Shown here piece by piece: positions 20,575 through 62,908 of a stretch of DNA of 64,000 nt. Under the pieces are notes generated by a model. The model had not been told where the DNA came from. It did no database searches and saw only the letters and a list, made by a program, of their open reading frames with translations. Position numbers and translations under genes: made by a program. Origin of the DNA: Lacinutrix sp. Bg11-31. GTDB taxonomy: Bacteria > Bacteroidota > Bacteroidia > Flavobacteriales > Flavobacteriaceae. The DNA lies in assembly GCF_002831665.1 (NCBI RefSeq), contig NZ_CP025118.1, positions 62,001-126,000 of the forward strand. The letters run 5' to 3'. Within the stretch, counting starts at the first letter, position 1. Each line of letters opens with the position of its first letter.

Positions 20575-20713
20575 TTCGTTTAACGTTGTTGTGTATGGTT
20601 AGTTGCGTGGTTAAGCACCTAATTTAGTAAACAAATCACAGATAGAATATTCCGCAGGAATGTTCGTAAGTCGGCAGTGACCTAGCAATTAATTATACAC
20701 GGTGTTAGCCACA
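20575..20713 (-). repeat. Downstream folded site of cassette A (attC-like, about 139 bp)
   Basis: Arms TGTATGGTTAGTTGC and GCAATTAATTATACA pair at 12 of 15 positions, the other three being G-T. They enclose about 80 bases with a nested palindrome (ATTCCGCAGGAAT). It closely resembles the site after cassette B, including the shared inner stretch CTAATTTAGTAAACAAA. The end facing away from the gene carries GTTTAAC, a match to the integron core-site form RYYYAAC; the end facing the gene does not match that consensus fully. Confidence 0.75.
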
Positions 20714-20717
20714 GTAT

Positions 20718-21302
20718 TTATTCCGTTTTGATTAAAATTATTGTGTCTCTTTCTCGTAAGTTGTTTTCTAGAAATTGGTATTTTTCAAATCTAATTTTCA
20801 ATTCCGTTTTCCCGTTTGATGTATATATTGAATTATCGCTAAATTCAATTTCATTGTTTAAATTCACCTCTTTCATTCTCTTCTCTAGCACAAAAAATTG
20901 TTTTTCCGTAATCTCATATGGGCAACAACTTCCAAGAAATCCTTGTGCTTTTTGATAAATCACAAAATCGTTTTTCTCCAGCTCAATATAATTCGGTTGA
21001 ATAGGATAAAGTACTATCGAGGCTAAAATTCCGAAAAATATTCCGCCAAACAACCAGAATAATAAAGTCAGAATTGGCGTAAACGCATAAAAACTAAAGT
21101 AAATTCCGATTTTCTTAAAAGGCTTGAGATTCCACAAAAAGAGAATAATTCCGCTTGCATAAACTAATAAAGTTATAAAATAAGAGAATCTATAATTCAG
21201 ACTTATTTCAATAGTGCTTTTCAGAGCGAAATTCAATAAAGCAAATCCCAAAAGGTAGAAATGAATCTTTGTAATTATATCTCTGATTTGGGTTTTCGTC
21301 AT
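20718..21302 (-). CDS. Hypothetical membrane protein (cassette A cargo)
   Basis: I do not recognise the family of this 194-residue protein. Three or four hydrophobic helices fill the first 110 residues: FYLLGFALLNFAL, FSYFITLLVYASGIILFLW, IYFSFYAFTPILTLLFWLF, and a glycine-containing FGGIFFGILASIVL. A hydrophilic C-terminal domain of about 85 residues follows, with FLGSCCPYEI as a possible reactive or metal-binding pair of cysteines. The topology suggests an inner-membrane protein with a soluble tail. It is a lone gene between two attC-like sites and is unrelated to its chromosomal neighbours, consistent with acquired cargo. Confidence 0.7.
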   Translation of the reverse strand: MTKTQIRDIITKIHFYLLGFALLNFALKSTIEISLNYRFSYFITLLVYASGIILFLWNLKPFKKIGIYFSFYAFTPILTLLFWLFGGIFFGILASIVLYPIQPNYIELEKNDFVIYQKAQGFLGSCCPYEITEKQFFVLEKRMKEVNLNNEIEFSDNSIYTSNGKTELKIRFEKYQFLENNLRERDTIILIKTE

Positions 21303-21304
21303 AT

Positions 21305-21372
21305 TGTGGCTAATGTTTCGTTGATATAAAATCGTTTCAATGTTTTATATCATACGTTAAACGAAGTTAGCC
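21305..21372 (-). repeat. Upstream folded site of cassette A (about 65 bp)
   Basis: The site folds on itself: GGCTAA/TTAGCC, TTCGTT/AACGAA and GATATAAAA/TTTTATATC pair around a short loop. The site before cassette C shares most of this sequence, including the stem GATATAAAA/TTTTATATC and the stretch CAACGAAACATTA, and the site before cassette B is a more diverged relative. Confidence 0.75.
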
Positions 21373-21399
21373 TAAAAAATTGACAAAGTCAAGTATGGG

Positions 21400-27244: not shown

Positions 27245-27484
27245 TTAGAGCGCATAACGCTATTATAATTTTAAGTAAATGTATATTATTTTTTAATTGG
27301 TTTTACATTGCTTTAAAAATTATTTTTGGATAGTTTTTTTATTATTAATAAAGTTGAATTATCGTTTTAACAAACTAACTTATTGAAAATAATTTGTTAG
27401 ATAGCGCTTATCTTTTTAGAAATTATAAAGTCGATGAACTTTTAGAGAATTGTGAAAATTATGGAATGTAATATTCTTTCGTTT

Positions 27485-27621
27485 GTTGAACGGTTTTGTA
27501 TATGGTTTGTTACGTGTTTTAGTAACTAATTTAGTAAACAAAAACGAACGCGAGAAAATTCCGAAGGAATTTTCTAAATAAGCACTTGCCAAAGCAATTA
27601 ACTATACGCGGTGTTACCTGC
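27485..27621 (-). repeat. Downstream folded site of cassette B (attC-like)
   Basis: It is homologous along its whole length to the site after cassette A, with the shared inner stretch CTAATTTAGTAAACAAA and an inner palindrome GAAAATTCCGAAGGAATTTTC-like (arms GAAAATTCC and GGAATTTTC). It occupies most of the 369-base gap between the ATP-grasp gene and the cargo gene. The remaining 240 bases next to the ATP-grasp gene hold only AT-rich sequence with a weak TACATTTA promoter-like box. Confidence 0.7.
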
Positions 27622-29404
27622 TGGATTTTTTCCAAAGTATTGATTTTTTCTTAATCGGAATACTTAGTTTAATACCAAGTTCTCCCTCTTTAGCATTTTT
27701 AACAGAACTACCATTTAATTGAATATCGATAATCTCTGATTTATAGAATTTTCCATTTTTCTCTATTAGAATTTCTTCGTTAATTGAAAGTGAACAATCT
27801 TTAATATTTACAATGCAAATTTTTCCATTTTCAAATAATTCCAAAGGTTCATCAATAAACTCTAAATTCTGAGGTTTAAACTCTACAAGACCATAGTTTT
27901 TGAAAGTGTTTCTAGCATCTTCTTTTGATAAAATCCCTTTTTGAACTAAATCATAAAGTTGATAAAGTTGCCAAGTTGTAAGCAAACCTCTTTCATCGTT
28001 TATTGCATCCTGTATTTGATGTTCAGTAAAAGGTGGATTCTGTCTTTTTAGTGGTGGTTGATAACGTTGATGATTTACTAAATACAAAGCAAATACATCA
28101 AATGCGTTTCTTTGTTTACATCGACGATGCTTTATTTTTGAAATCTGACTACAGTCTCCATCCGTTGATGTGCCTCCAATCCCTTTACATTCAATAATTA
28201 ATAGACCCTCTGGTATATCTACTTGAATATCTTCTTCCAATATTACAGAACCATTTTCAGTATCAAAATCTTTTGCATTTTTAAATTCTAACCAGTTCAA
28301 AAATTTAATTACAGCATTAACTAACTCATCACCAGTTTCTGTAATTAATTCGTGAAGAAATCCATGTTTTTTATTGTTAGTAATAATTTTACTTGCATTT
28401 CTAGCCAACTTTTCTTTATAATCCTTTTCAATTACTTTTTTATCATCTAAAAGTTCAGCAAAATTTGGCAACCAATATTCTTCTTGTTTCCTCCAATCAA
28501 AAGTAGTCGAGTAGGGAAATAATCCCGGAAAAATTGATGGTGCAATTTTAGATAGAAATTCTAAAAGAAAATTTGCTTTATCCTCAATTTGAGGAAAAAC
28601 AATTAGATTGTTAAATTTATTTATTTCAACATAAGAAACAATATCTCCATTAATGTTAGTTATTAAAGGAAAATAATTTTCATATTTTTCATTTTCTCCA
28701 CCATTCCATCGAGTGGGATGCTCAAATGTTTGGTTATAGTAGAGATTAGATTTATACTTTTCTAGTAAACGTTGTAAGTCATCTATTGATTTGTAAACGG
28801 TTATTTCTTTACCATATTTAGGCTCTTGGCAAGGAATATAGTTCCAAAATGAATATATACTATGTTTTTCAATTCCTTGTCTTCTTGCATTGCCTTCGGT
28901 TACCATTATAGGTTCGTATTCAACTTCATAGTTTGAAGAGGAAAAAGCTATGACCAAATATTCTCTATTGGTTATTTTATAAAACTCTTCTTTTAATAAA
29001 GAAGATGCAATTGGCCTTGGGTCGAATAAAGTTTCAGGAAAACTGCTTAATAAAGAATATGAGCTTTTTCCTGTATGCATTGCTCTAATATGCTCTTCTT
29101 CATTGTAGTCTATAGTTTCAAAACTATCTAAATCCATAACGAATATATCAAGTTCGTGAAGATTTAGAGGGAAATTGTGATTTGGTAATAACTGATGATT
29201 TTCCCTTCTGGTACTATTCGGAACTTTTATTTTAGAACCCAAAGAACCTAATGATAAATTCATTCCAGCTTTTTCTAAAGTAGATATGACTTCTTTATCA
29301 GTGTCGATACAACAAATTCTTGGGCGTTCAACAGTTTTTGTTTTTTCCACTTGATTGGTAGATTTCTTTTTTTCTCTCTTTTTCTTATCTCCAAAAATTC
29401 CCAT
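27614..29404 (-). CDS. PD-(D/E)XK nuclease-like protein (cassette B cargo)
   Basis: This 596-residue protein is not one I can name. After a very basic start (GDKKKREKKK), residues 28-150 form a region with ICCIDTDKEV and FVMDLDSF that could be a Rossmann-like or receiver-like fold. Around residues 385-403 the pattern ILEEDIQVDIPEGLLIIECKG has the spacing of a PD-(D/E)XK nuclease core (D, then E-x-K), followed by RRCKQR. The last 70 residues (KSEIIDIQLNGSSVKNAKEG, GIKLSIPIKK) resemble the small beta-barrel of EF-Tu domain 2. A lone nuclease-like gene with accessory domains fits a defence or DNA-processing role, which is inference. Confidence 0.6.
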   Translation of the reverse strand: MGIFGDKKKREKKKSTNQVEKTKTVERPRICCIDTDKEVISTLEKAGMNLSLGSLGSKIKVPNSTRRENHQLLPNHNFPLNLHELDIFVMDLDSFETIDYNEEEHIRAMHTGKSSYSLLSSFPETLFDPRPIASSLLKEEFYKITNREYLVIAFSSSNYEVEYEPIMVTEGNARRQGIEKHSIYSFWNYIPCQEPKYGKEITVYKSIDDLQRLLEKYKSNLYYNQTFEHPTRWNGGENEKYENYFPLITNINGDIVSYVEINKFNNLIVFPQIEDKANFLLEFLSKIAPSIFPGLFPYSTTFDWRKQEEYWLPNFAELLDDKKVIEKDYKEKLARNASKIITNNKKHGFLHELITETGDELVNAVIKFLNWLEFKNAKDFDTENGSVILEEDIQVDIPEGLLIIECKGIGGTSTDGDCSQISKIKHRRCKQRNAFDVFALYLVNHQRYQPPLKRQNPPFTEHQIQDAINDERGLLTTWQLYQLYDLVQKGILSKEDARNTFKNYGLVEFKPQNLEFIDEPLELFENGKICIVNIKDCSLSINEEILIEKNGKFYKSEIIDIQLNGSSVKNAKEGELGIKLSIPIKKKSILWKKSSR

Positions 29405-29420: not shown

Positions 29421-29485
29421 GCAGGTAATGTTTCTCTAATAAAAAATCATTCTAATTTTTCATCAAAAGTTCAACGAAGTTAATC
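29421..29485 (-). repeat. Upstream folded site of cassette B (about 65 bp)
   Basis: It aligns with the sites before cassettes A and C: GGTAATGTTTC at the gene side, a central AT-rich stem (TAATAAAAAATCAT with ATTTTTCATCA), and CAACGAAGTTAATC at the outer side. Pairing of the central stem is weaker than in A and C. Confidence 0.6.
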
Positions 29486-61533: not shown

Positions 61534-61574
61534 GTTTTAAGAGCCTTTTATAACTTGACTTTTTCATTTTTTTT

Positions 61575-61640
61575 CGCTAACTTCGATTATCGTCTGATAT
61601 AAAACATTAAAACAATTTTATATCAACGAAACATTATGAG
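61575..61640 (+). repeat. Upstream folded site of cassette C
   Basis: GCTAACTTCG, the stem TGATATAAAA/TTTTATATCA around a short loop, and CAACGAAACATTA are shared with the site of cassette A over most of 65 bases. The two differ mainly in the outer arm (ATTATC instead of TTTAAC) and in the bases after CATTA. Confidence 0.75.
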
Positions 61641-62714: not shown

Positions 62715-62908
62715 CAACGTGTGTAAAACATAGCTAATAAGAGTTTGACCCATAGGTACGTGTATATTTACAAAGACCGCCAAATTTTTAAATTTGGCTT
62801 TTAAGATTGATAAGTTAAAAACAAAATATAAAAATTCGGCTCTGTGTTAACCCGAAAAGTTAGTGTCTTTTTACGAGCTACGTTTCATACACGAACACGA
62901 TAATCGAA
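62708..62908 (+). repeat. Downstream folded site of cassette C (about 200 bp)
   Basis: Arms CGTGTGTAAAACATAGCT and AGCTACGTTTCATACACG pair at 15 of 18 positions (the rest are mainly G-T or A-C). They enclose about 140 bases with a nested hairpin (GCCAAATT/AAATTTGGC). Longer than the sites of A and B, but with the same placement and with an outer arm that matches the upstream site of the same cassette. Confidence 0.65.

Follow-up and report, generated by a model that had tools for sequence, protein, structure and literature searches.

One gene on the minus strand of this marine bacterium's genome is enclosed by two nested pairs of complementary arms, which raises the question of whether it is a mobile cassette and, if so, what kind of system placed it there. 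The window, that is, the whole stretch of 64,000 nucleotides analysed (G000:C1:62001-126000), belongs to a genome consisting of a single contig of 3.67 Mb. The unit, cassette A, is very probably a mobile cassette with a single gene that belongs to an integron-like system and was inserted into a platform composed of a promoter and a hairpin.

The cassette A locus in the window

Every element of the original prediction was present at its predicted position on the minus strand (Table 1). The gene-side arms (20705-20713 / 21305-21313) pair at 9 of 9 positions as proposed, or at 92% over 13 nt. The outer arms (20575-20586 / 21354-21365) show the complementary nesting that had been described, with 12 of 12 positions paired rather than the 11 of 11 first counted, and the arms of the platform hairpin are fully paired (10/10). 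The bottom strand of the cassette A site folds better, and an Rfam search of the 64-kb window returned no match.

The exact 9-mer TTAGCCACA occurs twice in the window, both times at the inner-arm positions of cassette A, while TTAAACGAA occurs four times, two of them at cassette A. When one mismatch was allowed, words like TTAGCCACA were at chance level (15 against 15.3 expected; 61 of 100 shuffles reach 15), and words like TTAAACGAA, most of them away from cassette A, numbered 78 against 56.9 expected, a count reached in 0 of 100 shuffles. Because such single-word counts are insufficient, the significance of the arm pairing lies in the repetition of the end rule in the array and the platforms.

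The window holds two further units, and unit C is its third platform-borne cassette. The flanks of the unit C locus are conserved in genome G002, which carries a different cassette there; the site preceding the right arm of platform C gave only a weak model match (E 0.002).

Table 1. Features of units A, B and C, with positions in the window
Feature	Position	Strand	Evidence
Platform A promoter, read towards the gene: TTGAC (21388-21392), then TAACTTCG (21362-21369)	21362..21394	-	59 platform copies
Platform A left outer arm R'' = TTCGTTTAA, then C at 21356	21357..21365	-	12/12 pairing with 20575-20586
Platform A hairpin (arms 21343-21352, 21322-21331)	21322..21352	-	Pairing; dispersed repeat
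Cassette A left end TTAGCCACA; junction A|TT between 21314 and 21313	21305..21313	-	Same start in array cassette and in another genus
Cassette A gene, 194 aa, weak DUF6057 similarity (below cut-off)	20718..21302	-	In 2/299 family genomes
Cassette A right end TGTGGCTAA, then C	20705..20713	-	9/9 complement of left end
Cassette A site (attC-like); arms GTGTATAATTAATTGC / GCAACTAACCATACAC, core 20591-20700	20584..20704	-	38 genome matches; CM R1 157.5 bits (R1 member)
Platform A right outer arm R' = TTAAACGAA	20575..20583	-	Pairing; same arm and flank in G005
Unit B platform, diverged (76% identity)	29425..29482	-	Arm TTCGTTGAA; one-mismatch complement 1988 nt further on
Unit B gene, 596 aa	27614..29404	-	ORF; Pfam: none at E<=0.01
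Unit B cassette site, second in window	27482..27624	-	CM R1 122.3 bits (R1 member)
Unit C platform, left arm TTCGATTAT at 61582-61590	61553..61635	+	Dispersed-repeat match
Unit C gene, 344 aa, serine hydrolase, beta-lactamase family PF00144	61680..62714	+	Pfam
Platform C right arm ATAATCGAA, exact complement of the altered left arm	62900..62908	+	Arm comparison

Cassette sites, the array and its recombinases

A search with the 3ʹ site region of cassette A (161 nt) returned 38 matches (E<=1e-3) across the genome. In the direction of the gene, the 41 sites delimited by script in the stretches examined read NNNNNNNAA-C, 3 nt, an arm of 16, a middle part with an inner hairpin, the second arm of 16, 6 nt and G|TTNNNNNNN. 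New covariance models of the sites, which had been suggested as a check, were built from 22 of the 28 type-1 sites (R1; four IS-cut sites and two others were left out) and from all 13 type-2 sites (R2), and R2 matched sites across the family. The site query gave no match in plasmids. A looser chain finder, with 1-10 in reversed-sequence controls, was used solely for the constant spacing of about 120 nt.

The main array, at 149-183 kb (about 34 kb), has 28 sites on a single strand, with three weak matches uncounted, and at its head stand a tyrosine recombinase and an attI-like stretch. In 24 of the 25 array cassettes tested (two longer gaps were skipped), the longest ORF runs the same way as the site; the sole exception is a 330-aa ORF of an IS110-type element. 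Like a canonical integron, the array is made of units of one gene plus a 3ʹ site that run in one direction. In 26 pairs of consecutive sites (main array, 22; second locus, 4), we set the start of each cassette against the reverse complement of its end. The ends agreed at 9 of 9 positions in 13 pairs and at 8 of 9 in 4 more, that is, 17 of 26 at 8-9 of 9. Among the nine other pairs, four start at sites cut by IS-like sequences, four span sites found later by the models, of which one matched weakly (E 1.7e-4), and the pair 155907-153612 in the array breaks the rule without explanation. At end positions 3-10, 133 of 208 comparisons agree, against a mean of 75.0 (sd 7.1, maximum 106) in 10,000 shuffles. 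We read the cassette ends as cassette-specific 9-nt complements.

The canonical attC consensus is RYYYAAC for R'' and GTTRRRY for R'. The R boxes of the sites fit RYYYAAC in 3 and GTTRRRY in 4 of 41 cases, and both together in none; AAC is present in 36 and GTT in 35 of the 41. The cassettes appear to follow the integron logic originally invoked, and the R boxes rarely fit its consensus. The fit of the outer arm of cassette A to the attC consensus, also pointed out in the original prediction, looks incidental, since other platform arms read TTCGATTAT/ATAATCGAA and TTCGCTTAT/ATAAGCGAA.

Some sites are interrupted, and in four of them an IS110-like element begins directly after the second arm. 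The sequence of the element at L042:13313-14305 (-) is also found behind the G000:C1 sites 159870, 173475, 2545163 and 3548230, and a variant of it lies behind sites 2541753 and 353817. The 330-aa ORF of the site-cutting element, which we take to be an IS110-type transposase, was observed at 2545163 and behind 159870. A group II intron was considered as the sequence cutting several sites and was rejected, as there was no Rfam match and the ORF looks IS110-type. The insertion has a parallel in IS1111 elements, which target attC according to an excerpt of PMC11187229.

The arms of the sites are asymmetric between the strands. Over the 16 arm pairs of each of the 41 sites, 527 pairs are Watson-Crick, 116 show A.C when read on the top strand and G.T on the bottom one, 2 show the opposite, and 11 are of other kinds. 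The arm mismatches lean to the bottom strand in 41 of 41 sites, which are related within one genome and do not represent 41 independent events, and folding with DNA parameters gave a more stable bottom strand in 36 sites, a more stable top strand in 2 and equality in 3. The bias was weaker in 53 sites of other genomes (83 to 23; arms picked automatically, orientation by ORFs) and absent in 4 sites of G055 (2 to 3; arms picked automatically). Mismatches reading A.C on top and G.T on the bottom are expected if the folded bottom strand recombines, and recombination probably uses a folded single strand.

Seven genes of the genome carry PF00589, two of which (376 and 383 aa) directly precede cassettes. 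With TIGR02249, whose cut-off is 265, the array-heading recombinases reached 209 and 211 bits; with NF040815 they passed the cut-off. The IntI-specific domain (patch III / I2) of canonical integrons is lacking: residues 178-247 of IntI4 (2a3v) align to merely 278-304 of the integrase query, all 5 IntI have the insert, all 27 non-IntI rows (XerC, XerD and 25 integrases of types 1-3) are without it, and the predicted structure has no extra helix between 271-284 and 301-314. In a midpoint-rooted tree of 32 rows, the 5 IntI form one group (100/99), XerC/XerD stand separately (100/99), and the integrases without I2 are placed with IntI, with weak support (80/88) for a grouping of their own. A PDB search with the integrase model (mean pLDDT 83, pTM 0.57) returned IntI4 (2a3v) first (E 2.8e-15, TM 0.47/0.54), with XerA structures close behind. 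Pfam searches of 20 integrase members gave integrase and SAM-like domains and otherwise single weak matches; types 1 and 2 have an extra N-terminal part of about 105 aa without a Pfam match, and residues 5-72 of the model form an alpha/beta unit. Judged by these features, the array-heading recombinases are relatives of IntI that lack its specific insert. The cassettes and integrase 1 have the same direction.

Behind the integrase stop there is a palindrome, for example AATAAACACACTAGTGTGTTTATT, followed by a few bases and the first cassette. This order of integrase, attI-like stretch and first cassette, with the stretch beside the integrase gene as attI is in an integron, recurs in several genomes, and the first cassette starts about 70 nt after the stop in S0862 and Seonamhaeicola. 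Perfect palindromes of 22-24 bp with differing sequences were present at 7 of the 17 integrases examined, several others, including those in this genome, were imperfect by eye, and 6 of the 17 had none of at least 8 bp. For the seven perfect ones, 0-3% of random 95-nt windows, which may overlap the palindrome, were equal; random windows at other loci reached up to 30. A tmRNA gene (L040:14470-14864, -) is located some 4 kb away from integrase 1; it is the sole Rfam match near the array and possibly the insertion point of a larger island. An integrase relative (55% over 230 aa) was also observed beside tet(X3) on an Acinetobacter plasmid (L341:2643-3308).

Platforms, their cassettes and their distribution

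The region of the platform A hairpin had 26 matches in this genome at E<=1e-3, some of them partial. An 83-nt platform query matched 13 of 13 genomes of the same genus, 2 of 24 other genomes of the family (G003 and G008, once each) and none of 23 genomes of other families. A platform opens with TTGACTTTG...TAACTTCG, the distance from TTG to TA being 23 in at least 44 of 59 copies; across these copies the TTGAC letters are conserved at 76-88% and the TAACTTCG block at 95-100%, its first T at 68%. The second block agrees, but for one letter, with the Bacteroidetes -7 box TAnnTTTG as given in an excerpt of PMC7366714, which also reports that a -33 motif was not found in Flavobacterium johnsoniae. 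The platform promoter is presumably active.

On our reading, the spacers of the platform hairpin are those of a cassette site (AAC, 3 nt, arm; arm, about 7 nt, TT). The left arm was readable in 52 platform copies, and its exact complement lay within 7 kb downstream in 38 of them. Six of these 38 are empty platforms with the complement directly behind the hairpin, and a seventh empty one has one mismatch. No exact complement was found for the other 14 arms, the sequence examined being short for many. Altered arms have correspondingly altered complements (TTCGATTAT/ATAATCGAA, TTCGCTTAT/ATAAGCGAA, TTCGTTTAT/ATAAACGAA), and 5 of 12 non-consensus arms have an exact partner. The resident site of cassette A is not unique: it is one of a family of dispersed, promoter-bearing platforms with a geometry like that of a cassette site. 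Where platforms stand in tandem (G000:C1:758203-758566, L116; G005:C32:49995-50181, L145), the segment TTAAACGAA...TTCGTTTAA makes up a short unit that may be a promoter cassette without a gene.

An empty site reading TTCGTTTAAC-hairpin-GAAACA-TTAAACGAA had been predicted for relatives, and two are present in G004 (C38:147768 and 391642). The first reads ...AACGAAACA|TTAAACGAAACTAAAATCC and is filled in the genome under study (G000:1307198), where the sequence is ...AATGAAACA|TTGTGCGTC ... GAACGCACAAC-site-CTAACCG|TTAAACGAAACTAAAATCC, with the arm split exactly at A|TT and the own ends of the cassette agreeing at 8 of 9 positions. The downstream flanks of these two loci are 89% identical over 2.7 kb; the upstream flanks were not alignable in the sequence examined, and the promoters share an unusual spacer. 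The second empty site is filled in G005, with both flanks at 92-96% and the cassette starting at the same A|TT; there the right arm lies 2044 nt from the left arm, with a further insertion behind. The loci G000:216144 and G004:C23:22994 have flanks of 91-94% identity and different cassettes. At the locus of cassette A itself, platform and cassette are both missing from G012; G005 shares the right arm of the platform and the flank, and the cassette there is another one, starting TTGGCAACA. No target duplication was seen by eye at the cassette junctions read. Orthologous platforms carry different cassettes in different species, which amounts to cassette turnover. The empty and filled platforms and the arm split at A|TT support the idea, put forward for cassette A, of a circle entering a resident hairpin site with a break before TT.

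The cassette A gene was found at E<=1e-20 in 2 of 299 family genomes, this one and one of another genus, and the arms covary; the contrary pattern named in the original prediction, a gene conserved across the family with arms that do not covary, was not found. The copy in the other genus, the third, has the same ends and is located between two other cassette sites. Array cassette B, the array paralogue of cassette A, is 86% identical over 629 nt, from exactly TTAGCCACA into the site, and the sites of the two are of different types. In the arrays examined, 1 of 23 of the genome's own platform cassettes has a full array homologue, and two others matched over 45 and 56 nt. Traffic between array and platforms is suggested by this one cassette, whose two copies end in different site types. 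A search of a large protein set with the cassette A protein gave 69 proteins including the query, among them sequences named as from Algibacter, Winogradskyella, Mariniflexile, Leeuwenhoekiella and Tenacibaculum.

With strict filters, R2 matched 37 of 60 relatives (13/13 of the same genus, 21/24 of other genera of the family and 3/23 of other families). The three genomes of other families had 1, 4 and 1 matches and are the same 3 of 23 that have an integrase-1 match below 1e-80; for G042 and G055, R2 gave one weak match each (1.6e-4 and 3.7e-5). Among the named organisms with related integrases are Winogradskyella ursingii, Seonamhaeicola aphaedonensis, Algibacter onchidii and Rufibacter, the last with sites of 55 nt. 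A strict link test on 44 of 80 fetched integrase relatives found linked cassettes at 6 loci (L262, L265, L269, L282, L284 and L289) and none at the other 38; shuffles had means of 0-0.2 and a maximum of 2 over both strands, which equals the L289 count and was reached by the shuffles of L289 itself. A complete site of this family is also present in the marine Winogradskyella phage Peternella_1 (L340:3001-3129), where the annotated genes run opposite to the site; the phage is a possible vehicle for cassettes.

Proposed mechanism, rival explanations and known systems

In the mechanism that we propose, a circular cassette would recombine via its own folded site into a platform, in which a promoter is followed by a short hairpin site. 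An exchange just before TT would turn the 9-nt platform arms (TTCGTTTAA / TTAAACGAA) into the two outer ends and the cassette arms (TTAGCCACA / TGTGGCTAA) into the two inner ends, and the platform promoter would then drive the cassette gene. Cassettes would be stored in the array headed by the integrase with its palindromic attI-like stretch, and would also occupy some two dozen scattered platforms, alone or in small groups. The site anatomy, the arm rule, the array, the empty and filled platforms, the cassette turnover and the bottom-strand bias can be read directly from the DNA sequence. The cassette presumably passes through a circular form, with putative integrase-catalysed excision and insertion, and the enzyme is probably the array-heading I2-less tyrosine recombinase.

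Could the same observations be explained by a canonical integron of IntI and attC, or by its remnants, with cassettes that a true IntI produced elsewhere remaining here as single or clustered attC sites? It would account for the shared cassette logic, the AAC...GTT core (36 and 35 of 41), the array, the place of attI and the IS inserted at a fixed place within the sites; true IntI over the cut-off also occurs in 57 of 198 genomes of the phylum (GTDB), and excerpts of reviews list integrons for Bacteroidota or the Bacteroidetes/Chlorobi group (PMC8618304, PMC2426708). However, over-cut-off IntI was found in 0 of 19 genomes of the family and 1 of 49 of the class by our count, the array-heading recombinases fall short of the IntI cut-off and are without the insert, and few R boxes fit; we regard this explanation as quite improbable. 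It is unlikely, too, that the system is as described and another enzyme, the host XerCD or some other tyrosine recombinase acting in trans, does the work while the array integrase is a bystander. XerCD, which is without I2, uses the hairpins of CTX phage (PMC7790495, in excerpt), and some platform-rich genomes are without a full-length integrase-1 orthologue, the best match in G005 and G007 being a shorter relative of about 285 aa with 38-41% identity. Against this stand the attI-like stretch and first cassette placed directly after the integrase in several genomes, and the co-occurrence of sites and integrase 1 outside the family.

The dispersed nature of the platforms, their hairpins and the scattered single units also recall a hairpin-ended transposon or a MITE/REP-like repeat that carries genes by accident. 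We hold this to be highly improbable: the ends are not constant, the arms vary between cassettes yet pair within each, an element that was already there takes up inserts exactly at A|TT and keeps both halves of its arm, and a head-to-tail array is accompanied by an integrase. An ordinary vertically inherited gene between flanking terminators, its arms pairing by chance, has a negligible probability; the arms are indeed short and rich in A+T, and one-mismatch TTAAACGAA-like 9-mers are common, but the gene is rare in the family, G012 is without both gene and platform, the arms covary, and empty and refilled orthologous sites were found.

The mobile cassette system favoured here appears to operate like an integron and to add scattered promoter platforms; two defining features, the IntI-specific insert and the attC R boxes, were tested and did not hold, which keeps it from being a canonical member. 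In an integron survey described in an excerpt of PMC9668308, the IntI-specific domain served to recognise integrases, and attC models served to recognise sites; a system lacking both could escape such a survey. We found no description of such a system in open-licence PubMed Central papers (without preprints, and mostly by titles and abstract openings), and one may exist elsewhere. An excerpt of PMC7790495 describes the I2 helix as the step that allowed single-strand recombination; if integrases do use folded single strands without I2, that account needs a second solution. With scattered promoter platforms, cassette expression would extend beyond the first few array positions. We lean towards regarding the whole as a 'distributed integron', a second lineage of gene capture in Bacteroidota, one without I2, in which a G.T/A.C strand code would let folded bottom strands be read, a palindromic attI would stand at the head of the storage array, and cassettes would reach dozens of conserved expression platforms, each a promoter plus a hairpin, across the chromosome.

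Like IntI/attC integrons, including sedentary chromosomal integrons and CALINs, this system has one-gene cassettes with a 3ʹ folded site, a head-to-tail array in one direction, an integrase adjoining an attI-like stretch, exchange before TT with AAC/GTT, and strand-asymmetric inverted-repeat sites. Unlike them, it has integrases without the IntI insert and with the N-terminal addition in types 1 and 2, an integrase 1 co-directional with the cassettes, many promoter platforms, variable 9-nt R arms, and a strand bias expressed through G.T versus A.C pairs. The integrases resemble XerA and XerD-type recombinases (NF040815; PDB 4a8e, 5hxy, 1a0p) in the domain content of the C-terminal part of about 260 aa and in having no I2, but differ in falling with IntI apart from the genome's XerC/XerD (midpoint root) and in their association with cassette arrays. 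The most unusual part is the platform network. As in gene-less cassettes that carry promoters (PMC11014356, in excerpt), an element with a recombination site brings a promoter to downstream cassettes; the platforms, however, are chromosomal loci with the right arm at the far end and not just members of an array. Insertion of cassettes by IntI into the chromosome outside the array, at attG sites, is likewise known (PMC12901181, in excerpt, citing Loot et al. 2024), whereas the platforms described here form a conserved repeat family, combine a promoter with attC-like geometry, and are re-used by different cassettes.
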